From positions 1 to 36,366 of IMG/VR virus record IMGVR_UViG_3300050014_000178: a stretch of DNA of 36,366 bases. The stretch is one strand, 5' to 3'. Position 1 is the stretch's first letter. Each line of letters opens with the position of its first letter. Under the pieces are notes generated by a model that saw nothing but the letters and a program-made list of their open reading frames with translations, was not told the DNA's origin and did no database searches. The translations under genes were made by a program, and so were the position numbers. Below are positions 4,855 through 36,183 of the stretch, in pieces. This stretch comes from a virus.

Positions 4855-6294
4855 ATGCGATATTTTTCAACATTTAGTGGGATCGGAGGATTCGAAATTG
4901 GAATACAAAATGCTTGTAATCAACTCGTAAATGAGGCCCGCGGACAGACCAAGCCTGACGAAGATCTGCGACAAATGCGACTCAGGGAAGTTGTACCAAC
5001 TGTGTTGCGGGACGACAGCGGGGTCGGGTCCGTTGATGAAATGGGAGGAAGCCTACTGTCTACCGACGAGCGGTGGCTCCGGCCAGTATGTGTAGGCTAT
5101 TCCGAAATCGATAAGTACGCAATTAAAGTTTATGAAAGGCAATTCAATGGGCACAAAAACTATGGAGACATCACCAAAATCAACGCAGACGAACTCCCAG
5201 ACTTCGACGTCTTGGTGGGTGGATTCCCTTGTCAGGCATTTAGCATCGCAGGGAAACGAGCTGGTTTCGAGGATACCAGAGGGACGCTTTTCTTTGACCT
5301 TGCGCGAATACTTAAAGCTAAAACCCCAAGACTATTTGTATTCGAAAATGTCAAAGGATTGCTTAGTCACAACCACGGACATACTTTCAAAACCATCATC
5401 GCTGCGATTGATGAGTTGGGGTACGATTGTCAGTGGCAAGTGCTTAACAGCAAGAATCACGGAGTCCCCCAAAACAGGGAACGAGTTATCTTTGTCGGAC
5501 ATCTTAGAGGAACATCCCGACCAGAAGTATTTCCTATCACAGAAACAGACCGAACAACTAACGAGGGACTTGAACCGCAAAATACCAAGGGCGAAGTTGC
5601 ATCAACAGTAAGAAGTAGATACGGCAATGGTACTGGCAGTCACATAAGGAGTATAAGTCAACCATCTAGGGGCACTGAAGTACGGGATGATGCGTTTGCA
5701 AATGCATTGCGAGCGAATGGTGGTGGTGCACAAACTCCAAAAATAATTCAGTTGAATCACCCAACTCACTCCAACGATAGGGTTTATGGCACAGACGGAA
5801 TCAGCCCAACTATAAACACAGCACAGGGTGGCAATCGACAACCGTTTGTTGCCCCAGTATTAACACCAGACAGACCAGTTAAACGACAGAACGGTAGACG
5901 TTTCAAAGAAGATGGTGAACCTAGTTTCACATTAACTGGTCAGGATAGACATGGTGTGATGGTAGCTTGTGATTTGACCCGCCGAGCCGAGAACAACCAC
6001 CGCATCCGCAAAGATGGTCGAGCTGGGACTCTTGATGCTAATTATTACAAGGGAGTTGCTAACCAAGAGCGACCAGGCGTCACGGACGGCGTTCGGATAC
6101 GACGACTCACGCCATTGGAATGTGAACGTCTCCAAGGGTTCCCTGACAACTGGACGAAATATGGCGAGGATGAGCACGGTGTTAGGGTTGACATTAGTGA
6201 CTCACAGCGCTATAAAATGTGTGGTAATGCAGTAACCACAAACGTAATCCAAGATGTATTCGAAAGGATCTTAGCCAGTGAGCGACCGCAGTAA
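4855..6294 (+). CDS. DNA (cytosine-5) methyltransferase with repeat-type recognition region and N-terminal insertion
   Basis: Transfers a methyl group from S-adenosylmethionine to C5 of cytosine in DNA. All key motifs are visible: motif I TFSGIGGFE near residue 6, motif IV GGFPCQ with catalytic Cys126, motif VI ENV at 164-166, motif VIII QNRERV at 206-211, and the C-terminal YKMCGNAV at 453-460. Two oddities stand out. About 50-60 extra residues sit between motif I and the acidic motif II (VGYSEIDKYAIK). The target-recognition region (about 225-420) contains four or five related short modules, such as SPTINTAQGG and GTLDANYYKG. No partner restriction enzyme is adjacent, so it probably protects phage DNA. 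It starts one base after the helicase stop. Confidence 0.95.
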   Translation: MRYFSTFSGIGGFEIGIQNACNQLVNEARGQTKPDEDLRQMRLREVVPTVLRDDSGVGSVDEMGGSLLSTDERWLRPVCVGYSEIDKYAIKVYERQFNGHKNYGDITKINADELPDFDVLVGGFPCQAFSIAGKRAGFEDTRGTLFFDLARILKAKTPRLFVFENVKGLLSHNHGHTFKTIIAAIDELGYDCQWQVLNSKNHGVPQNRERVIFVGHLRGTSRPEVFPITETDRTTNEGLEPQNTKGEVASTVRSRYGNGTGSHIRSISQPSRGTEVRDDAFANALRANGGGAQTPKIIQLNHPTHSNDRVYGTDGISPTINTAQGGNRQPFVAPVLTPDRPVKRQNGRRFKEDGEPSFTLTGQDRHGVMVACDLTRRAENNHRIRKDGRAGTLDANYYKGVANQERPGVTDGVRIRRLTPLECERLQGFPDNWTKYGEDEHGVRVDISDSQRYKMCGNAVTTNVIQDVFERILASERPQ

Positions 6295-8345: not shown

Positions 8346-11300
8346 ATGGCTTTTTTTGACGATGTATTTAAGAATATCGGTAACTTCTTCTCTGGCGGAA
8401 ACCAGTCGTCGAATAATACTCCATCAGCCCCAGCCAACACTTACCGACCATCTATTAGTAACCCATTTAGTACCCCTGGGCTTAAAAGTAGTGCCCAAGA
8501 CCAAGCCGATGAGGAAGAACGCAAACGTCAAGCAGCGATTGATAAGGCTAAAGCCGATGCTGATAAAAAGGCTCAAATTGATGCCGAGTTCGCTAAACGC
8601 CAAGCCGCGCTTAAAGTTAACCCTGCCCCAGTAAATAACAACATCCCTGACCCTACGACGCCCCTCCAAAAAGCCTTCACCCCATCATTAGCTGGTCCGA
8701 CCGCCCCTACGCAGTTCACGCCAACTGTCCCATTGCAAAAAGCTAAGTTAGATTACAAGCCCGACCCTAATGCTAAGTCAAATGACTTTTTTGGTGATAT
8801 TGGCAACTTCTTGGGAGGAGCTGTTAATAATACTAAGGATTTTGTCGCTAATGCCGCTGGAAATGCCGTAAAATCGGCAGCCACTGGTATATCAAACGCT
8901 GGATGGGACTTGATGACTGGGTTCGATAAGGCCAAAACAGCTGAGAAAACTCAGAATTTTTTGCGTAATACTGGGATTGACCAGTTAGGTAATGGCACCT
9001 CTGACGGTGCTAATGCTGGTAAAGCAGTTGGTGGAGTTGTCGGAAACTTGGCAACAATGATCCCAACCACAGCTGAGAAGGTTATGGCAGAAATCCCAAG
9101 GGCCGAAATGGCGGGTCAGTTATATAGTGATGCTAACGATGCTTATGACCGCGGAGACAAACAAACCGGTGATTATCTGATGGCTGAAGCCAAAAACCAC
9201 GAAATATCGCTTGGTGAGGTTGCATCCACTACTTTAGAGGGTATTTTAACCGCCGTAACAATGGGCGAAGGTGTGACCCCACAAGCTGGGGCTGAAAAAG
9301 AATTAGCTAAATTTGGTACCGAAGACGGTATAAAAACCTTACAGGCAATGGCCCCAGATGAGGCAAAAGCAGTTATTGACGGTCTGAAAGAGACCGCAGC
9401 TGGCAACGGCACGAATTTATTAGAAAAAGCTGTTCACAGTTTCGGTAATATCGGCAAGGGCGAAGGCGCCGCTAACTTTGTCAAAGATATGACACTAAAA
9501 GGTGGCCCAACTGGCGCTGCCTTCAATGTAGCTGGTACTTTGGCTAACCCGAACGCCACTCCTGAAGATTATAAAAACGCCTTAATTAGTGGTTACGGTG
9601 GTGGTATGTTGTTCAGTGGTCTGTCAAAAGCTGGGTCACTGGTTAAAAGCAAGTTTACCGGTAGCAATGCCGATAATGCAGAAACCCCAACTCTCGACAC
9701 CCCTACGACCGCTCCTATTATCGAAGATGCCCAAAGTGTACCATCAACTGGCGAAACTGGCACAACTCAAGATCCTAACGCAACTGAAGTCGCTCCTGGT
9801 GTTCACACTCTAACCCCACCAGAGTTATCCCCAGCCCCCGATGCCAGCACTATTGCTACTGAGCCAACCACCACATCTGATGCTCAACCAGTTCAGCAAG
9901 AATTACCTATGCAAATTCCTGATCCTACATCGGATATGACATTAGCCAAGTCTGATGCTGCTACAAATCAGCCACTGATGGCTGACTTTAAGGATGCCGT
10001 TCAAGCGCCAGATACTACTACGACCCCAGCCCCAGCCACCCCAGCAGTTGAGCCAACTGTGGCGCCAGCTGATATCCCTCCAGTCGAAACTACCCCAACT
10101 ACAGCTGATACGAATCCAGTCGATCCACAAACCCAGGCAATGATAGACGAGCGCACTAAATACCAAGATTATTTGGCTACTGATGGTGGCAAAGACCCAG
10201 CTATGGATGCCATTGTTCAGGGCAAAATTGATAAAATTAACTCACTTATCGGACCAGACCAAGCCGTTCAAAGCGTCGCCCCTGCGACCCCAACCCCCGA
10301 AACACCTCCAGTTACTCCATTAGAAGCTACTACAGCCCCTACTCCTGAAGAAATCGCTGCTCAGACCACCGATGCCCAAGTTGAGAATCCAGACGCATCT
10401 AGGGCCCGCAATGCGGTCGCAAACAACACTATCGAAGACCAAGTATTGCGCGAGGATGTCGTTAAGAACTTCAAAAACGGTGACAAGATGAATATCGAGC
10501 AAGTAACTAATGACGCCAAAGCTGCCATCAATAACTTAACTGATGAAGAGATAATTCAGTCATATCAGAATACTCCTCAAATTGATACCCCAGAGGAATT
10601 CATCCGAAGTGTTGAAGCTATCAAGCGTTTACAATCTATCGGCACAGCTGAGGCTAGGGCCGCTATTATCAATGCTCTTGATGGAATTGACCAATTTAAG
10701 GGTGAAGCTGGTCAAAATATGCGTATTATGCAGGTCCTATATGAAGATATGCCGGTATCAATGCAAAAGGATTTCTTGGTTAAAAAGATTGAAAAACTAT
10801 CTGGTCGACCAATGTTAGACTCCGAAATGACTCGATTGGATGAGTTAGTCACAAAAGCTGACAATGCCGCTACTGGCGTTAAAGACCTACGCGACCAAGC
10901 CAATGCCGCTATTGATAAGATCCACACTGGCTCAGTCACTCCTGAAGACTTACAAAGTTACCGAAAACTGTCTGGTGACATCTCTAAAGCTGAACGCGTT
11001 AAGGGTTTGGCAAACGGTGAAGTCGACCACTTCTTGAGCCAATACAAGCCAAAAGCTACTATCGGCGCTAGAGTTGGTGAATTTGCGCGTACTGCTATGC
11101 TTAGTTCTCCACTGGGGCGCGTATTCCATATTGCATCAACAAGTGCCACCGCGGCCGATGATATATTGACAAAGAATGTTGCCGCTTTACTTGGTAAGGC
11201 TGTCAACAAGTTCACTAGTGATGGTAATGTCCAAGACACGTTGGCTAGTCCGTATCACCTAGCAAAAGGTGTGGGTGAGGGCGCGCGAATGGCGGGCGAT

Positions 11301-13115
11301 AACTTTGCCGGCAATCACTCTGTCGATAGCCTAAATACGGCTGTAAATGACTTAACGGCTGGTAATATAACTCATGGCGATAACGTCATCAAGAACACTA
11401 TTCGATCGGCAGTTGAGCTACCAACGGCTTTAGCTCGCGGTATGCGCGAAGATTCACTGTATTCACAAGGTATGCAAGAAGCCGCTCAGCAAGGTCTATC
11501 TGGCGCTGACCAACAAGCCTACGCAGAACTTCGAGCAGCAGCGCCTTCATCTGAACAACTCAGCAATGCTATTGACGCCCAAGCGAAGACGACTATGCTA
11601 CACAAAAACGGCATATCTTCGACACTTAATAAGATGGCAAAGGGTCTGGATGATGCCGGTCAAGGTGTCGGTGCATCACTAATCCGTAACCAAATTATGC
11701 CATTTACGAGTTGGATGGGCGGTAATATCAACCGTGCTCTAACAGATAAAAACGTACTGTGGAATGCTGGGTCTATCATAAAATCAGCATTTAATGGCGA
11801 TACGCAAGGGATTGTTAACAATTTTGCTAAATTAGCCGTTAATACCGGCGAAGCATACGCAGTCGCCACTATATTGACTAAGACTGGAGTTTTGACTAAT
11901 CAAGATGCTAATGGCGACAACTATGACGGAGTTTACTTCCATGTCGGTGATAAATATATACCAGTAGCAATCGCTGGAACTTTAGCTATACCTATAATTA
12001 TCGGTAATGCTGTCCAAAATGGGCTGGATGCAGCCGAAAACGGTGGTGATTTCTGGAAGACTACAGCTGGTCACATCGTTGGTAATACCATCAACAGTCT
12101 AGGAGTTTCGAGCACATTCGGCGGTCAGAATAACCTCCAAACTACAGTCGACTCCCTTAAAACCGCAGCCACAAAACCAGACGAAGTCGTCCCCGCTCTC
12201 ACGAAGTATGCTGGCGGTGTCGGGCGCCAATTCATCCCATCTGTCACTAGCGACATCAATGCTGGGCTTAACTTCACTGGTCTCAACCCAACTGGAGAAG
12301 CTGCTAACACAACCGTTGTTGACCCATTAACCGGCAAAACTGATGCTATGGCTAGTGAACTGGCTAAGTGGCAAAATACCATCCCTGGAGCGTCTCAAGC
12401 CCTTCCACGCAAGGTTGGAACTCCAGCGCAGGACTTAATCGATCGTGCCCTGCGAGGGACTCATGATACGGCTGAAACTAAAGCGGTTCAAGCTACAAAA
12501 GATAGTTTATTGACAATTACGAATGATATGAAAAAACAGGGTATTCCGACCGATGATAAGGGTATTCAGGCGAGGTTTGAAAATGGTAAGTATGATGATG
12601 CGATTAAGGGCTATAATTATCAATTAGCTGTCGCTAAATCCAAAAAAGATACTCCGCCTAGCGATATCAAAAAGATTGAAGATCAAGTTGCGCTTACCCA
12701 AGTTATGAAGAATAATAAGTACACCATGGACGATTTGAACTCGTATAAGTCTACTAGTCTTGACGAATGGCGAGCAATGGGCGACCCAGAGAGCGACACT
12801 TACGATCCAGAAATGTACAAACATCTATACAATATTGATAAAAATATGGCCAGTGTCGGCCAAAGTGGCAAAAAGGGTGATGGCACTAAGGGCAAATTCT
12901 ATGCTGCTAAAAAGAAGGGTTCTGGCTCTGGTAGCAGTGCCAAATCGTTCAACGTCGACATGGCAACCAACTCATTCAGTAGTAGCCCAGACAAGTTGCT
13001 GGCTAAGTCCGCAGCATCAGAGGTACCAGCTCAGTCGATTCCTATATTGCAAAAGGCAGCCAACAATGATACATCTAGGTTGAGGAAAATAACAGTATCT
13101 AAGGGGGTACAGTAA
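8346..13115 (+). CDS. Giant internal virion / ejection-type protein (1589 aa)
   Basis: The longest gene in the window. Residues about 50-90 form a charged coiled coil (EEERKRQAAIDKAKADADKK). Hydrophobic glycine-rich stretches follow at about 160-430. A long Pro/Thr/Ala-rich disordered region fills about 440-690. A helical part leads to a region at about 1110-1400 (LIRNQIMPFTSWMGGNINRA and onwards) that resembles the C-terminal LPD38-like domains of podoviral polyvalent or internal proteins. The tail is Ser/Gly/Lys-rich. It could be an ejection protein; a tape-measure role is less likely because no tail-tube genes are present. Its stop shares a base with the next start (TAATG). Confidence 0.65.
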   Translation: MAFFDDVFKNIGNFFSGGNQSSNNTPSAPANTYRPSISNPFSTPGLKSSAQDQADEEERKRQAAIDKAKADADKKAQIDAEFAKRQAALKVNPAPVNNNIPDPTTPLQKAFTPSLAGPTAPTQFTPTVPLQKAKLDYKPDPNAKSNDFFGDIGNFLGGAVNNTKDFVANAAGNAVKSAATGISNAGWDLMTGFDKAKTAEKTQNFLRNTGIDQLGNGTSDGANAGKAVGGVVGNLATMIPTTAEKVMAEIPRAEMAGQLYSDANDAYDRGDKQTGDYLMAEAKNHEISLGEVASTTLEGILTAVTMGEGVTPQAGAEKELAKFGTEDGIKTLQAMAPDEAKAVIDGLKETAAGNGTNLLEKAVHSFGNIGKGEGAANFVKDMTLKGGPTGAAFNVAGTLANPNATPEDYKNALISGYGGGMLFSGLSKAGSLVKSKFTGSNADNAETPTLDTPTTAPIIEDAQSVPSTGETGTTQDPNATEVAPGVHTLTPPELSPAPDASTIATEPTTTSDAQPVQQELPMQIPDPTSDMTLAKSDAATNQPLMADFKDAVQAPDTTTTPAPATPAVEPTVAPADIPPVETTPTTADTNPVDPQTQAMIDERTKYQDYLATDGGKDPAMDAIVQGKIDKINSLIGPDQAVQSVAPATPTPETPPVTPLEATTAPTPEEIAAQTTDAQVENPDASRARNAVANNTIEDQVLREDVVKNFKNGDKMNIEQVTNDAKAAINNLTDEEIIQSYQNTPQIDTPEEFIRSVEAIKRLQSIGTAEARAAIINALDGIDQFKGEAGQNMRIMQVLYEDMPVSMQKDFLVKKIEKLSGRPMLDSEMTRLDELVTKADNAATGVKDLRDQANAAIDKIHTGSVTPEDLQSYRKLSGDISKAERVKGLANGEVDHFLSQYKPKATIGARVGEFARTAMLSSPLGRVFHIASTSATAADDILTKNVAALLGKAVNKFTSDGNVQDTLASPYHLAKGVGEGARMAGDNFAGNHSVDSLNTAVNDLTAGNITHGDNVIKNTIRSAVELPTALARGMREDSLYSQGMQEAAQQGLSGADQQAYAELRAAAPSSEQLSNAIDAQAKTTMLHKNGISSTLNKMAKGLDDAGQGVGASLIRNQIMPFTSWMGGNINRALTDKNVLWNAGSIIKSAFNGDTQGIVNNFAKLAVNTGEAYAVATILTKTGVLTNQDANGDNYDGVYFHVGDKYIPVAIAGTLAIPIIIGNAVQNGLDAAENGGDFWKTTAGHIVGNTINSLGVSSTFGGQNNLQTTVDSLKTAATKPDEVVPALTKYAGGVGRQFIPSVTSDINAGLNFTGLNPTGEAANTTVVDPLTGKTDAMASELAKWQNTIPGASQALPRKVGTPAQDLIDRALRGTHDTAETKAVQATKDSLLTITNDMKKQGIPTDDKGIQARFENGKYDDAIKGYNYQLAVAKSKKDTPPSDIKKIEDQVALTQVMKNNKYTMDDLNSYKSTSLDEWRAMGDPESDTYDPEMYKHLYNIDKNMASVGQSGKKGDGTKGKFYAAKKKGSGSGSSAKSFNVDMATNSFSSSPDKLLAKSAASEVPAQSIPILQKAANNDTSRLRKITVSKGVQ

Positions 13116-25368: not shown

Positions 25369-27771
25369 ATGGAATCAAACATCAGTATCACGGTAGAAGC
25401 TCCGCAACAATTAGTCATGGAAGTATCGACACCGACATCGGTGGTCATGCCTATTGAGGGCGTTGGCGGTCCGAAAGGTGATACTGGTCCAAAAGGCGAC
25501 ACTGGCTTAACTGGGGCAACTGGCCCTACAGGGCCTACTGGCGCAACAGGGTCTACAGGCCCTGCCGGAGTGGGCGTTATTGCTGGGGGCACTACTAACC
25601 AGGTTCTAGCTAAAAACTCCAACGCTGATACTGATATGAAGTGGATGACGATTGCTGTCGGTGGCGATATGCTTAAAGCCACTTATGACCCTAACTCTAA
25701 AAATGCCGACGCTTTCTCGATGGATAATATGGTTGAGGGGGCAACTACCAAGATACTAACCTCAGCAGAACGAACTAAACTCACTAATACATCAGGCACT
25801 AATACTGGCGACCAGACTTTATCTGGTTTAGGTGGTGTTGCATCAGCTGGGATAGCTGGTGGGCAGACGGTAAATGGTGGAACTGGTTCAGCAGAAGATT
25901 TGCAATTATATTCAACATCCCACGCCACCAAAGGTAAGATACGATTAGGTGCTAACGTAGCTATTGACGAAAGTACTGGTAATATATGGGCATCTGGTAT
26001 GATAAACAAAGCCGCCACTACTAACTCTCAGGTTTATACTGCCTCTACTGGAGTGCAGTTATCTAGAAATATAGGTGACGCTAACCCAGCAGTTATTTCA
26101 AAACAAACCCACGCTTCGTCTACTGGTGATATATCGCAATGGCAAAATAGTGTGGGTATAGTAGCTAGAATTACTCAGGCTGGTAACATATCAGCCACCA
26201 ACCTTTCTGGTACAAATACTGGTGATAGTGCCGTAAACTCGTCAAGTGAGCCAAGCGGAGCAGTATCAACCCACGCTGCACTAACCACAGGGGTGCATGG
26301 GGCTGGTGCTAACAACTTCGTGTATTCAAACGATTCACGTTTAACCGATAGCCGAACTCCAACCGCTCATAACCAGGCTGAAAGCACCGTCACTTTTACG
26401 GACATAACGACAGGCAACGTATCAACATCTAATCATGGTTACTTCCCTAAACTACCAGCCTCAACAGGTAAATACCTAAAGGATGACTTGACCTGGGGAA
26501 CACCATCAGGCGCATCTGGTGGTACTCCAGCACTAACCCTCGGTACAACTAACACTGCTGGTGTATCTAGCACTTTTGTGAGAGATGACGATACTATACT
26601 GGCTTTCGATGTTACTGCTCCAACAACTCTATCTTACGGTGGTGCAGCCGCAACTGGTTCAGCAACAGTAGCAGCCAGACGTGACCACTCTCACGGTATG
26701 CCAGCCACAACCAAAGATACGACGGCTGTTACAGGCATATTAAAGGGTAATGCCTCAACTATTGCGGCTGCTACAGCAGGTACAGATTATGTAGTTGGTG
26801 GCACTTCAACTGTCGGTAACTTAATTTTTGTAGATAACACCTATGATATAGGTGCATCGGCTGCTACTCGACCTAAGAACGGTTACTTTGCAGGTGGCAT
26901 AGCCCTCAGCTCGGCTACAGCTACGGCTGGTGTGGCTAATGTAGCGACTGGATTCAGAATCGGTAATATAGCAACTGCTGGTCGCTTACTCATCGGTGAC
27001 GGTACGAACTTCATACAGTCCACCCCAGGTTTCCCAACGGCTGCCCCAGGTGCCGGTAAGATACTCGTTGGCGATGGTACTAACTGGATATTATCCACCC
27101 CAGCATTCCCGAACGCCTCAGCTACCTCTAGGAAGAAAATCGTCTCTGATGGTACCAACTGGATAGCATCGACTGAGACTTGGGCTGTCCCTGGCACCGC
27201 TGGTAACGTGTTACAAAGTGATGGCACCAACTGGACCGCATCCCCGACCATATCTGTCGATAAAAACGGTACCGCGTCGATTGTTGCCGCTACCGCCGCT
27301 ATCAACACTACTGAAACCGTAATCGTCAAAAACCCAACGGTTTTTGCTGCCAACCGTATTGTAGCTGGAACGACTATTCGGGCCACATTTATTGGTACAA
27401 ACACTTCAACTGTTGCCAACGCATCAACTTTCGCTATTCGATTCGGTACAGCTGGGACAGTTGCTGATGGTCTGCTATGTTCAGCAGTTACCGCAGTTTC
27501 AGCCACAACCGGCACAGCCATCCCATTCCGCGCTATATTAGAAATCACGCTTTACACTGTCGGCGCATCGACAACTGGGTATGGCGTTCTAACGGTTGAA
27601 AACCAAGGCGCAACTGGTATATCGACAACAGGGATTCAAGTGATTGCCGGTTCGATGACCTCTATAAACACCACTACAGCATCTACTTACTTATCAGCTA
27701 CCTATAAATCAGCCGCTACGACGACAACTTCAACCTTCCAATTAGCAACCCTCGAAATAGACGTAAAATAA
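25369..27771 (+). CDS. Collagen-like tail fibre protein 1 (800 aa)
   Basis: The N-terminal 33 residues ([13 protein letters not shown], then [11 protein letters not shown]) form a short anchor shared with the next fibre. Collagen-type G-x-y triplets follow (about 34-66), then a long Ser/Thr/Gly/Ala-rich beta structure. At about 540-635 four successive modules carry DGTNF or DGTNW ([36 protein letters not shown]). The C-terminal 150 residues ([20 protein letters not shown] and on) look like a knob domain. This fits a trimeric fibre for host binding. Translation starts two bases after the preceding gene. Confidence 0.85.
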
Positions 27772-27781
27772 GGAGACCCCG

Positions 27782-29008
27782 ATGGCTACAGAAATTGACA
27801 TCACCCAACCCGCCCAGATAGTGATGCAAATCACTGGTATTGGTGGGCCCAAGGGTGATTTCGGTGGCCCTCCAGGTCCAACCGGTCCCGCGGGGGCTAA
27901 TGGATCGACTGGTCCCACAGGTCCAACCGGTCCGACTGGGGCGACAGGGGCGAAGGGTGACAAGGGCGACACTGGGGCAACAGGATCGGCTGGTGCCAAA
28001 GGCACCAACGCTACTACGACCACCATCGTTGCGAGCGCTATCCCAACTGGAGCTGTCAACGGCGTTAACACGGCTTTTACGACGGCTTCAGCTTTTGCGT
28101 CTGGCACGCTTATTGTCTACAAGAACGGTATTCGTCTCAAAGGTGGCGGTAATGACTACACAGAGGGCGCTAGCTCGTTCACGATGGTCACAGCACCACA
28201 GACTGGCACTGTTTTGCTATGCGACTATATAGTCGTTCAGACGGCATCCTCAGTAGGCGTAAACACCATTACTACTGACGCGACCCCGACAGGTGCCGTG
28301 GACAACTCAAATACAGCATTCACTACCGGTCAATATATTGGTGGCTCACTTGAAGTCTATATCAACGGTGTCAAACAACAGAGAACGACTCACTTTACAG
28401 AGGTGTCTCCTGCGTCTGGCACGTTCACAATGAGCGATGCGCCTCTAACTGGTAGCAATATCCAAGTGAATTATCAGACCAACCTAGCGTCTACTGGAGC
28501 GGCTGACACGCTAGATGCTTTTCATGCTAGTCAAACACCTACAGCTAACCAAATATTGCCGTTAGACGCTAATGTTCGATTCCCTGCCTCTGTGTTGGGT
28601 GGAGCGTGGGCTACATTCACGCCAGTTTTTCCACTCATTAGTGGTGGAGCCGCAGTATGGGGCAATGCTACATTCGCTGGGGCATACACCCAAGTCGGCA
28701 AAACAGTATTTTTCAGAGCGAGTGTCATACTAGGCACGACAACTAATTTCACAGGGCTAACAGCTATCAACTTCACGCTCCCAGTAGCGACGATAGCTGC
28801 ACAAGTCAACCACTTCATAGGGCAGGCATTCTTCATGACAGGCTACCAGTTCGGCAGAGTGATGTGCGGGTCAACAACTAATTGTTATATCTGGTGTGAA
28901 CAGACTGGCGGGGCATATAACTCGGCATCCGATATTACTCCAACGATACCTCACGCATGGGCGTCCACGCATTCAATAACAATTCACGGAAGTTACGAGG
29001 TAGCATAA
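27782..29008 (+). CDS. Collagen-like tail fibre protein 2 (408 aa)
   Basis: Shares with fibre 1 a short N-terminal anchor ([20 protein letters not shown]) and a longer run of G-x-y collagen triplets (about 22-74). Two tandem copies of a beta domain follow: the first starts [15 protein letters not shown] (about 87), the second [15 protein letters not shown] (about 168), each with a VYxNGxx(L/Q)xxxxxYTE-like core. The C-terminal domain ([20 protein letters not shown] to the end) is a fibre-tip type fold. The shared anchor suggests both fibres attach at the same site. Strong AAGGAG ribosome site. Confidence 0.85.
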
Positions 29009-32048: not shown

Positions 32049-32765
32049 TTACCAATCTCCCAATTCGTGTTGATTATTTTGTTCTATTTCTGCCGGTGCA
32101 TCGCCCATGAAGTCAAATACGTTCTCCATGTCGAATACGCTTATGTCCTGATTTAGAGGCTCTGGGACGGCCAATTCTAGCCATTCGATGAACTCTGGGT
32201 CAGGGTAAACACGGATTACTTTCACTTTTTTAGTGTTTAGGTTGACAGCGATAAAGTCGCACCATGCCCGACCAGATGCCCAAAGTTGCCCTTGGATTTG
32301 TCTCCACCACTTCTGTGGGACGCCTTCTGATAGGATCGTGGTAAAACTGTTGTCTCTGACTATTTTGATTTCGACTAAACCGTCATCACCGACACCGCCA
32401 TCTGGCGATGCGACAAAGTGCTCGTTATACCAGCACCCGACTTCAAACACCTTAACGCCGCAAATTTTCTCGTATTGCTGACGCGCAAAGTCTTCGTAGT
32501 CGATGCCATCTTGCATAGCTGGGCTAATGAAGTTGTCGAAAGCTGTCCCGAAGGCGCGTTCGAATAGGATCTCTTTTTCATAGTCCAGACGTGCTTTAAG
32601 GGGCTTGCCTTTGGTTTTCTCGGCTCGACTAACTGATAGCCAGTCGTCTAGGCGTGATGCTGTGACCTTGCCTAAACGGATGTCAAACCACTCAGCGGTT
32701 CGCTGGGGCCCAGCAAAATAGCTAAACCCCTTTGGTGCCTTGATACTATTCAAAAGGGAAGACAT
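32049..32765 (-). CDS. YqaJ/lambda-type exonuclease (238 aa)
   Basis: A PD-(D/E)xK exonuclease of the YqaJ viral recombinase family, which digests one strand of duplex DNA to prepare recombination. Seen: the family opening RTAEWFDIRLGKVTASRL, then SPDGGVGDDGLVEIKIV, which supplies the catalytic Asp, Glu and Lys, then WWRQIQGQLWASG, the conserved Gln helix. The start is placed at ATG 32765, with GGAGA upstream and a 20-base overlap with the SSB-like gene. It partners the SSB-like and Sak4-like genes in a recombination module. Confidence 0.92.
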   Translation of the reverse strand: MSSLLNSIKAPKGFSYFAGPQRTAEWFDIRLGKVTASRLDDWLSVSRAEKTKGKPLKARLDYEKEILFERAFGTAFDNFISPAMQDGIDYEDFARQQYEKICGVKVFEVGCWYNEHFVASPDGGVGDDGLVEIKIVRDNSFTTILSEGVPQKWWRQIQGQLWASGRAWCDFIAVNLNTKKVKVIRVYPDPEFIEWLELAVPEPLNQDISVFDMENVFDFMGDAPAEIEQNNQHELGDW

Positions 32766-33285
32766 CTTCGACGTTCTCCGGCGTGATCTCTCCACCACCC
32801 ATTTCGTTAATAACAGCGGTCGCATCTGACACATTCTTCATTTTTGGCTCGTAACCGTAAATGTTTTTGTTCAGTTGGTCGTATTCTCGACCGTTAGATT
32901 TGCTGGTGTACTTTTCGCCAGTCTTTTCGACTAGCAGCCAACATTCTTTGCCGCGCAAGGCTTCACAAAGTTTCAATAACTCGTCAGTGTCTTTGACGGC
33001 ATCAATCGCTTTGCGGGTCTTCTCTTTGGCAGCGTCATTAACGGCGTTGTGAACGAATATAGCGCGGATAGTGTTAAAGCTGTATGGCTTTGCCTTCTCA
33101 GTAAAATAGACGCGGGCATTGCCCTCTTCGCCACCTTCGCCGACCAGCTCGAACTCAAAATACTCTGATCCCTTATCGGTCTCGCCAGCTTTCACGCTGA
33201 CTATCTGTACCTTGAATATGCCTTCGCCAAAATAGTTATTGTTAAACACTTTTTCTACCTTGTCCTCATCTGTGAATTTTGCCAT
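32746..33285 (-). CDS. SSB-like / DUF669-type ssDNA-binding protein (179 aa)
   Basis: The N-terminal region (GIFKVQIVSVKAGETDKG, then YFEFELVGEGG) looks like the OB-fold-like opening of DUF669 phage proteins, which are taken to bind single-stranded DNA. The centre is helical (AIFVHNAVNDAAKEKTRKA). The protein ends EDVFPFE, a short acidic, aromatic tail closely resembling the DDxxPF tip through which bacterial SSB recruits partner enzymes. It sits between the exonuclease and the Sak4-like ATPase, as expected in a recombination module. Confidence 0.7.
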   Translation of the reverse strand: MAKFTDEDKVEKVFNNNYFGEGIFKVQIVSVKAGETDKGSEYFEFELVGEGGEEGNARVYFTEKAKPYSFNTIRAIFVHNAVNDAAKEKTRKAIDAVKDTDELLKLCEALRGKECWLLVEKTGEKYTSKSNGREYDQLNKNIYGYEPKMKNVSDATAVINEMGGGEITPENVEDVFPFE

Positions 33286-33286
33286 T

Positions 33287-33727
33287 TTATACCTCGTGCT
33301 TTCCTTCTACTTTACGGTATGATCGTTCAAGCTGACGATCTTTTAATGCTTGAAGTGCTTGTTCAATATGAGTAATTGCCATGCTGTTTGCTCGGTCGCG
33401 GAACTTGCTTTCGTTGAAGAATTCAAGACGTTGTAGCGCAGCCCAAAGAACATCCTCGACAAATGCGCCATTAGGTGGCAGTAGTTCATCTGTGCCTTCT
33501 TGTCCGCGGGGTCCGTTTTGCCAAACTATTGAGACAGCCTCAATTTTTGGTAGTCCAACAATAACATCGTTTTCTAGTGGCGACTCTGTCTCTAATTTTA
33601 CAAAACCACCAGTAGGGTTGCCGTTAGGGTCTAATGTGTTACTAGCGGTAACATCAGGGTTTATATTGTAAGCTATTCGATATTCGGGTCCCGAAATTAC
33701 TTCTTGATAATAAGCGTTATTTTCCAT
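33287..33727 (-). CDS. Acb2/Tad1-hairpin-domain protein, possible cyclic-nucleotide sponge (146 aa)
   Basis: The start is ATG 33727, eight bases after GGAGG. Residues 1-60 are a beta-rich extension. Residues 70-73 are QNGP, and then comes PPNGAFVEDVLWAALQRLEF, an R-x-N-x-x-AITHIEQALQAL helix (112-128) and a final R-x-VEGKHE (138-145). This order (QNGP, NGxxxEDxLxAxxxRL, R-N-x-AI-x-x-(I/L)E-x-AL, VEGK-E) is the pattern recalled for phage proteins carrying the Acb2/Tad1 hairpin domain. Characterised relatives (Acb2, Tad1) bind cyclic nucleotides and block CBASS or Thoeris defence. The function here is inference; it has a longer N-terminus than Acb2. Confidence 0.72.
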   Translation of the reverse strand: MENNAYYQEVISGPEYRIAYNINPDVTASNTLDPNGNPTGGFVKLETESPLENDVIVGLPKIEAVSIVWQNGPRGQEGTDELLPPNGAFVEDVLWAALQRLEFFNESKFRDRANSMAITHIEQALQALKDRQLERSYRKVEGKHEV

Positions 33728-33819
33728 TATTTTGTCCTCCAATTTTTAATTGATTTACTAACTGCTTTAACGATTCTGCCCATCAACGTCCCTAACATTC
33801 CTCCGGCAGCCCAGTTCAT
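33727..33819 (-). CDS. 30-residue basic amphipathic protein next to the Acb2/Tad1-like gene
   Basis: ATG 33819 to TAA 33729-33727 encodes 30 residues opening MNWAAGGMLGTLMGRIVKAV and ending KNWRTK. The hydrophobic start and basic end could form one amphipathic helix. GGAAAGG lies upstream in the end of the Sak4-like gene, and the stop shares a base with the Acb2/Tad1-like start. The downstream ribosome site GGAGG lies inside this ORF, so translation of the two is linked. Function unknown. Confidence 0.5.
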   Translation of the reverse strand: MNWAAGGMLGTLMGRIVKAVSKSIKNWRTK

Positions 33820-33822
33820 AGC

Positions 33823-34518
33823 TTATTTTACCTTTCCTACTTTAACTGATTTCTTCGGCAACTCCCAACCGATAGCGGTTAAGAATGACTCGATATCACC
33901 AAAATCGACCTTACCAGCCATGATCTCCCGCTTACTGATTATGTTTGCTTTGTGCTTTTCACCATCAAATGATGTTAACACCTGAGCATCCATAAATCGA
34001 GTGAGTAGTCGGATGTTCTTGAACTCGCTATCAAGCATTATAGACCCACTAATGTCGTCTATACGGCGCTTGATGTAGCTAAGCACAATCACATTCATGT
34101 TGATGTTGGCAAGGGCATTAGCGAAGGCTGAGACGCGTGAGTTGAGCACGCCTGTGGCACGACCGTAAGGCACATCATTAAGTGATGCGATGTTCTTACC
34201 ATCGGTTGTCTTGAAACCTTGCTTATTGAACTCGTCTAACACGCCTTTGGTGAAGATATCGACAATGCCCTCAATCGTGTCGATAACAAGAGTTTTATAA
34301 TCTTTGCTCTTGACACCCAACTCCATTGCCTCACGGATATCGGTGACACTCTTCACGTTAACAGCATGTAGACCCGCTTTGGCTGCGTTGCCATCGGTGC
34401 TAATAAATAGCGGTGACGGTGACTTGGCGGCCAAGGTGGTTTTACCGGCGAATGGTTCGCCTATGACCAGGAACTTGCTCGGTGCTTGTGGTGTAGCTTT
34501 TACGATTTCTACGGTCAT
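33823..34518 (-). CDS. Sak4-like RecA-fold ATPase (231 aa)
   Basis: A phage recombination ATPase of the AAA_24/Sak4 type, which helps pair single-stranded DNA together with an SSB. Walker A GEPFAGKTT is at residues 20-28 (Lys26) and Walker B TLVIDTIEG has Asp80 and Glu83. Other features are YIKRRIDDISG, typical of the family's sensor region, and a basic C-terminus. No DnaB-type extras are present. Coupled by TAATG to the ribbon-helix-helix gene and followed by the 30-aa, Acb2/Tad1-like, SSB-like and exonuclease genes. Confidence 0.85.
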   Translation of the reverse strand: MTVEIVKATPQAPSKFLVIGEPFAGKTTLAAKSPSPLFISTDGNAAKAGLHAVNVKSVTDIREAMELGVKSKDYKTLVIDTIEGIVDIFTKGVLDEFNKQGFKTTDGKNIASLNDVPYGRATGVLNSRVSAFANALANINMNVIVLSYIKRRIDDISGSIMLDSEFKNIRLLTRFMDAQVLTSFDGEKHKANIISKREIMAGKVDFGDIESFLTAIGWELPKKSVKVGKVK

Positions 34519-34938: not shown

Positions 34939-36183
34939 TCATAACTGCTCCTTCCATTGGCTTGCTTGAAAATCATTTTTACCGCGCAAACACTGATAGA
35001 TATCCTCCTCAATACTATTCGGTGTCCTAAAGTTATAAAACGTCGTCTTTTGTGTTTGGCCGTTGCGGTAGACACGACCAACACTCTGGATATATTCGGC
35101 GTAGCTATATGTCGGTGAAAAGTAGATCACTTGCGTGGCGTAGGTCATTTCCACGCCAGTGCTGCCGGACTTGTAATGAGATAGGGTGATGGTGCGCTTG
35201 GTGGTAGCCCATTCGCTCTTCGTCGGTAGTTCGTGGTGTTGTCCGTTCTGTCTGAAAACCAGGCGGTCACTGTGTTTCTTTGATATCATTTCTGATATAG
35301 CATCGTGCTCGGTGACGTAGTTGTAGAATATGACGATATTCTCGTCGGTGCCCTCAATCAAATCTGATAGATAGTCTAGTTTACCTTTGGTAAGTGTCTG
35401 GCGGAGCGCGTGTGCCAAGGCTGAAGGGTTGTCTAATATATCACCAGCCAGATTTTGGCGGGATATTATAGTTTTTAGATATTCCTTCGGTCGCGTAAAG
35501 TCGACGCCTATGAATTGACGATCCGGCAAGTCTAGCGCCTGTGCCTTGGTTAATCGGCGTGACATCCCTTGCCATTGCCCAGCCATTTCGCCTTCGTGCC
35601 AGTAGTTAATCAGTTCAGGAAAACCCTTATAAGTAACATAATTGCAATAGCGTTTTTTGAATTCTGTGATATTTCTAACAAAACTAAACATTTTGCTATA
35701 GTTCGCGAAGTCGATCCAGCCATTTGGTAATGGTGTAGCTGATAGCCCCACGAAGAATTTAGCATCCTTCGCAGCATAATACATAGCTTGCCCCGCCCCG
35801 CTCTGCGGATTCTTCGCCTTGTGCACCTCATCGGCTATAACCGCCCATTGTCGACCACCATACTGTGGCGCATACTGGTGCCAGATTGCCCGCTTGCCTT
35901 TTCTGAACTGTTCTAGCGACGGCTCGCGACTGAACTTTTCGTAGCTGTATATGTGATATTCAGGCTCGTTGCCTTCACCAAAATATTCAGTAATTTCGCG
36001 CTCCCAGTCTTTTGTTCGGACCTTGGATGCGGGTGCCACGATTAGTAGTGGCGTGCCAGATGCAAGGCGCTTGTAATGCTCTAGCGCCATGAAAGTCTTG
36101 CCAGTGCCAGTGTCGGCTGCCATGATGGCGCGTGGTGGTAGCTTGTCCAGGTATTTAAGTTGATATTCGTATAGTTTAATCAT
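34939..36183 (-). CDS. SNF2-type DNA helicase/translocase (414 aa)
   Basis: A superfamily 2 ATPase that moves on duplex DNA. Motifs: Gln8 in a YEYQ motif, Walker A DTGTGKT at residues 24-30, Walker B with ADEVHKAK near 117 (DEVH), motif III GLSATPLPNGW, and motif VI QSVGRVYRNGQTQKT, whose arginines complete the active site, as in SNF2/Rad54-like phage proteins. The full-length core has no extra nuclease domain. It starts within the stop of the 99-aa gene that crosses the circle junction and ends just before the promoter of the next unit. It probably supports recombination or replication restart. Confidence 0.93.
   Translation of the reverse strand: MIKLYEYQLKYLDKLPPRAIMAADTGTGKTFMALEHYKRLASGTPLLIVAPASKVRTKDWEREITEYFGEGNEPEYHIYSYEKFSREPSLEQFRKGKRAIWHQYAPQYGGRQWAVIADEVHKAKNPQSGAGQAMYYAAKDAKFFVGLSATPLPNGWIDFANYSKMFSFVRNITEFKKRYCNYVTYKGFPELINYWHEGEMAGQWQGMSRRLTKAQALDLPDRQFIGVDFTRPKEYLKTIISRQNLAGDILDNPSALAHALRQTLTKGKLDYLSDLIEGTDENIVIFYNYVTEHDAISEMISKKHSDRLVFRQNGQHHELPTKSEWATTKRTITLSHYKSGSTGVEMTYATQVIYFSPTYSYAEYIQSVGRVYRNGQTQKTTFYNFRTPNSIEEDIYQCLRGKNDFQASQWKEQL

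Follow-up and report, generated by a model that had tools for sequence, protein, structure and literature searches.

Tad1 soaks up the alarm molecules by which bacteria trigger anti-phage suicide, and is a hexamer of three dimers. Its mechanism has been described in a review, together with an architecture that consists of a beta-sheet plus two long helices (PMC12043709). The Tad1 of phage phiKZ is an injected anti-CBASS and anti-Thoeris protein (review PMC13282480), and phiKZ gp184 has been reported as injected (PMC10449902). Here we describe a tad1 homologue in a linear IMG/VR virus record, the whole of whose 36,366-nucleotide stretch is called the window below. The initial annotation had proposed an Acb2/Tad1-hairpin-type protein and a possible anti-CBASS or anti-Thoeris sponge; sequence, profile and predicted fold support the sponge and narrow it to Tad1. 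That the protein is related to Tad1 is almost certain, and we consider it likely that the gene encodes a Tad1-family signal sponge. The features on which the argument turns are as follows.

34939..36183, minus strand, SNF2-type DNA helicase (phrog_62, 6e-75)
33823..34518, minus strand, Sak4-like ssDNA annealing protein, AAA_24 (PF13479, 3.1e-17; phrog_124, 7.1e-22)
33287..33727, minus strand, tad1 homologue (146 aa plus stop; ATG at 33727, TAA stop)
33521..33706, minus strand, N-terminal beta-rich part of the tad1 homologue, residues 8-69 (AlphaFold; aligned with CbTad1/CmTad1)
33317..33460, minus strand, two-helix hairpin of the tad1 homologue, residues 90-105 and 112-137, with invariant R100, N114, A117, R131 and R135 (AlphaFold and alignment)
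32746..33285, minus strand, SSB-like ssDNA-binding protein (phrog_378, 5.9e-7; ATG one base after the tad1 stop)
32049..32834, minus strand, YqaJ/RecE-like exonuclease (PF09588, 4.9e-15; phrog_149), given here as the longest ORF; this runs into the SSB gene, so that the true start may lie further in

Results

The tad1 homologue, read from 33727 to 33287, has a GGAGG ribosome site about 8 bases 5' of its ATG. Comparison with homologues of 58-69% identity gave substitution values of 0.52-0.64 at third codon positions and 0.19-0.36 at positions 1 and 2, and because the differences fall mainly at third positions we regard it as a real, conserved gene under purifying selection. The motifs noted initially lie where they had been placed, with QNGP at residues 70-73, NGAFVEDVLWAALQRL at residues 86-101 and R-x-N-x-x-AITHIEQALQAL beginning at R112; the final VEGKHE is also present, the C-terminus reading VEGKHEV.

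Searches of the PDB with phmmer returned significant matches to Tad1 entries only (6.5e-7 to 3.1e-4), among them CmTad1 (8kbb) at 6.5e-7 and CbTad1 at 2.4e-4. A profile built from a 53-member alignment found CmTad1 at 3.6e-24, CbTad1 at 2.2e-20 and gp184 at 1.2e-11, and these PDB E-values together with the profile value of 3.6e-24 argue that the likeness to Tad1 is not due to chance. PHROG 2428 matches both the 146-residue protein (2.8e-16) and the proven Tad1 of Bacillus phage SBSphiJ7 (8e-47), and a profile-profile comparison with hhalign between the clade of the window and SBSphiJ7 Tad1 and its kin gave a probability of 99.7%. Homology to an experimentally proven Tad1 is thus present in the conserved C-terminal part, where identity to SBSphiJ7 Tad1 is 40% over 80 residues; over the whole chain, identity to the solved Tad1 proteins in the fold alignment is 20-25%. 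No sequence alignment to known Tad1 was obtained for the N-terminal part, the loops of which contribute to the pocket.

Scans of the 146-residue protein against Pfam, NCBIfam and PADLOC returned no matches. The PADLOC library says nothing on the Tad1 family, since it missed the proven SBSphiJ7 Tad1 as well. The Acb2/Tad1 hairpin family of Pfam (PF24729), which the initial annotation had named as the profile to search, likewise gives nothing on this protein; at a gathering cut-off of 27 bits, SBSphiJ7 Tad1 scores 34.2 bits and one close relative a sub-threshold 13.4 bits (L001), and 34 of the 53 alignment members are matched at E up to 1 (best 4.3e-8). The lack of a significant profile match, put forward at the outset as a ground for giving up the assignment, therefore holds for PF24729 only and is overruled by other, stronger evidence: the assignment is carried by the PDB sequence search, PHROG 2428 and the fold.

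An AlphaFold monomer model, built with the 53-member alignment, has a mean pLDDT of 89 and shows strands at residues 8-12, 26-32, 38-48 and 61-69, forming an N-terminal antiparallel beta-sheet that is followed by two long helices, as in Tad1. In a Foldseek search of the PDB the best 20 rows were all Tad1 (1.3e-6 to 1.7e-4), and the next row stood at 0.34. With VIA-align, the alignments to CmTad1 (Z 10.2) and CbTad1 (Z 10.1) took in 115-123 residues between positions 9 and 146, while the highest-scoring unrelated row reached 7.1 and covered the hairpin alone; because helical parts often yield middling Z values, we base the fold assignment on the full-length coverage and the sequence evidence. 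The beta-rich N-terminal region of about 60 residues had been described as an unusual extension. Since the published architecture of Tad1 combines a beta-sheet with two long helices, we see in it instead the normal Tad1 beta-sheet, absent from Acb2, and for the same reason its presence alone does not point to a different ligand range.

Eight columns never vary among the 53 members: Q70, G72, G87, R100, N114, A117, R131 and R135. In the printed phmmer alignment against the PDB, from which the CbTad1 equivalents were read, N114, R131 and R135 align with CbTad1 N92, R109 and R113, and F104, a position held by F or Y in nearly all 53 members, aligns with F82. We take these four CbTad1 residues to be ligand contacts, and their equivalents in the 146-residue protein are, by alignment, kept.

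The tree places the window in a clade of eight members (support 100/98) that is separate from the SBSphiJ7 group, although few columns and long branches leave the deeper forks of this tree without resolution. The branch around the clade, which carries a DxNGNPxGG motif, is found mainly in uncultured phages. This separation from the tested Tad1 proteins, together with N-terminal loops whose DxNGNPxGG motif differs from SBSphiJ7 Tad1, would suit a Tad1-fold sponge whose main ligand is another signal, neither gcADPR nor a CBASS nucleotide. We think this rather unlikely, given that the residues aligned to the presumed CbTad1 contacts are retained and that the tested Tad1 homologues share binding of gcADPR and of trinucleotides (PMC12043709). 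It is similarly doubtful that the eight-member clade and the large surrounding DxNGNPxGG branch as a whole are sponges for a signal that tested Tad1 do not bind, held within a Sak4-SSB recombination operon in this lineage.

Confirmed Tad1-relative stretches numbered 339 in viral contigs (80 kept) versus 7 in genome contigs, so that the relatives found are mostly viral, the viral contigs having been scanned with two patterns and the genome contigs with one. Two contigs of one Omnitrophota genome (L089:7992-8531 and L090:7989-8483) encode relatives in which VEGTHG is followed by a low-complexity tail some 55 residues long. Vibrio phage BX-1 contains a Tad1 homologue that lacks a CDS of its own in the record (L007:4710-5090), with a gene for an ADP-ribose-binding macro domain some 3 kb upstream.

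The recombination operon in which the gene had been placed is real, and runs from the helicase through a 54-aa ORF, a CopG-like gene, Sak4, tad1 and the SSB-like gene to the YqaJ exonuclease. The SSB-like ATG lies one base past the tad1 stop, which suggests that the two genes are co-translated. Between Sak4 and tad1 sits a short, basic ORF of 30 residues (MNWAAGGMLGTLMGRIVKAVSKSIKNWRTK, 33727-33819, minus strand). Its stop codon and the tad1 start share one base (TAATG), and it may encode a leader peptide or a membrane-active one, or be no more than spacer.

A Sak4-like gene lies directly upstream in six of the seven closest relatives (L001 and L010 to L014), that of L011 and L013 belonging to PHROG 2872. 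The order of Sak4, tad1 and a gene in the SSB position is common to the window and five of them (L001, L011-L014), in which the downstream genes are related to one another, with a weak SSB match in L013 only (E 0.089); the record of L010 ends soon after tad1. Such an arrangement might be expected of a Tad1-fold protein that is no sponge but serves replication or recombination, for instance by partnering Sak4 or SSB. However, L009, which stands nearest to the window in the tree, lacks an upstream Sak4 gene, and when loci outside the eight-member clade were searched in the same way, neither Sak4 nor SSB turned up next to tad1, the closest approach being a weak Sak4 match 2-3 kb upstream of tad1 in L041 and L043. 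The Sak4-SSB placement is therefore common in one phage lineage and not a property of the Tad1 family. This confinement, the persistence of the invariant residues in loci that lack an adjacent Sak4 or SSB gene, and the fact that proven Tad1 proteins sequester signals make a recombination role for the fold very unlikely. Clustering of neighbours over the wider Tad1 family revealed no partner gene in common; its largest cluster (15 loci) was rejected as an artefact, namely a minus-strand ORF overlapping tad1.

That the product travels in the virion and enters the cell together with the DNA, as phiKZ gp184 is reported to do (PMC10449902), is highly improbable even though a 230-residue gp184 carries a Tad1 domain and some Bacillus phage relatives are annotated as "putative structural protein", because the gene sits in a recombination operon away from the structural genes and its product lacks the long N-terminal extension of gp184.

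Elsewhere in the window, a DNA methyltransferase of 479 residues (4855-6294, plus strand; phrog_116, 1.2e-100) directly follows the primase and is possibly a second anti-defence gene, directed against restriction. For a 1589-residue protein (8346-13115, plus strand) Pfam gave nothing and PHROG a single weak match (0.00079) of unknown function; the same profile searches found nothing for the two proteins that follow it, of 686 and 606 residues. Two tail-fibre-like proteins with collagen-like repeats are encoded at 25369-29008 (plus strand). The capsid protein (one gut-phage record, 26%) and the helicase (matches scattered over many hosts) do not allow a host to be assigned.

Discussion

A Tad1-family signal sponge is the reading that we favour for this gene, and from Tad1 we infer binding, a ligand range and a hexamer for its product. 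Six copies would assemble as in Tad1; cyclic ADP-ribose isomers and cyclic dinucleotides may then occupy pockets between protomers, and cyclic trinucleotides the trimer interfaces. Ligands would be sequestered without cleavage, and the effectors of Thoeris (cyclic ADP-ribose isomers) or of CBASS (cyclic di- or trinucleotides) would stay off. Because the gene shares one operon with recombination genes, the protein is probably made early in infection.

The known systems differ in how closely they resemble this protein. The likeness of Acb2 (T4 Vs.4) to the model is confined to the two-helix hairpin (Z 6.4, 56 residues), and the sequence searches gave no match to any Acb2 entry. Acb2 starts with a short helix and lacks a beta-sheet (PMC12043709), whereas our model is beta-rich N-terminally and thus departs from the Acb2 plan of a short N-terminal helix and two further helices. 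The PDB chain named gp184 (8y6v), presumably phiKZ gp184, has a C-terminal Tad1 domain like the 146-residue protein (the profile match given above); gp184, however, is injected with the virion at 230 residues, whereas here a 146-residue protein is encoded in a recombination operon. The Tad1 proteins compared (CmTad1, 8kbb-8kbd; CbTad1, 7uav, 7uaw, 8smd, 8kbe and 8kbf; and SBSphiJ7 Tad1) come closest: like them, the protein is predicted to consist, along almost its full length, of an N-terminal beta-sheet and two long helices, keeps the Q-x-G, G, N and R residues and is the product of a phage gene, and with SBSphiJ7 Tad1 it shares a C-terminal VEGxHE. Unlike them, it belongs to a clade of its own, carries DxNGNPxGG in a loop and has an insertion that spans roughly residues 45-61. 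It is almost certainly a member of the already known Tad1 family, with a predicted function.
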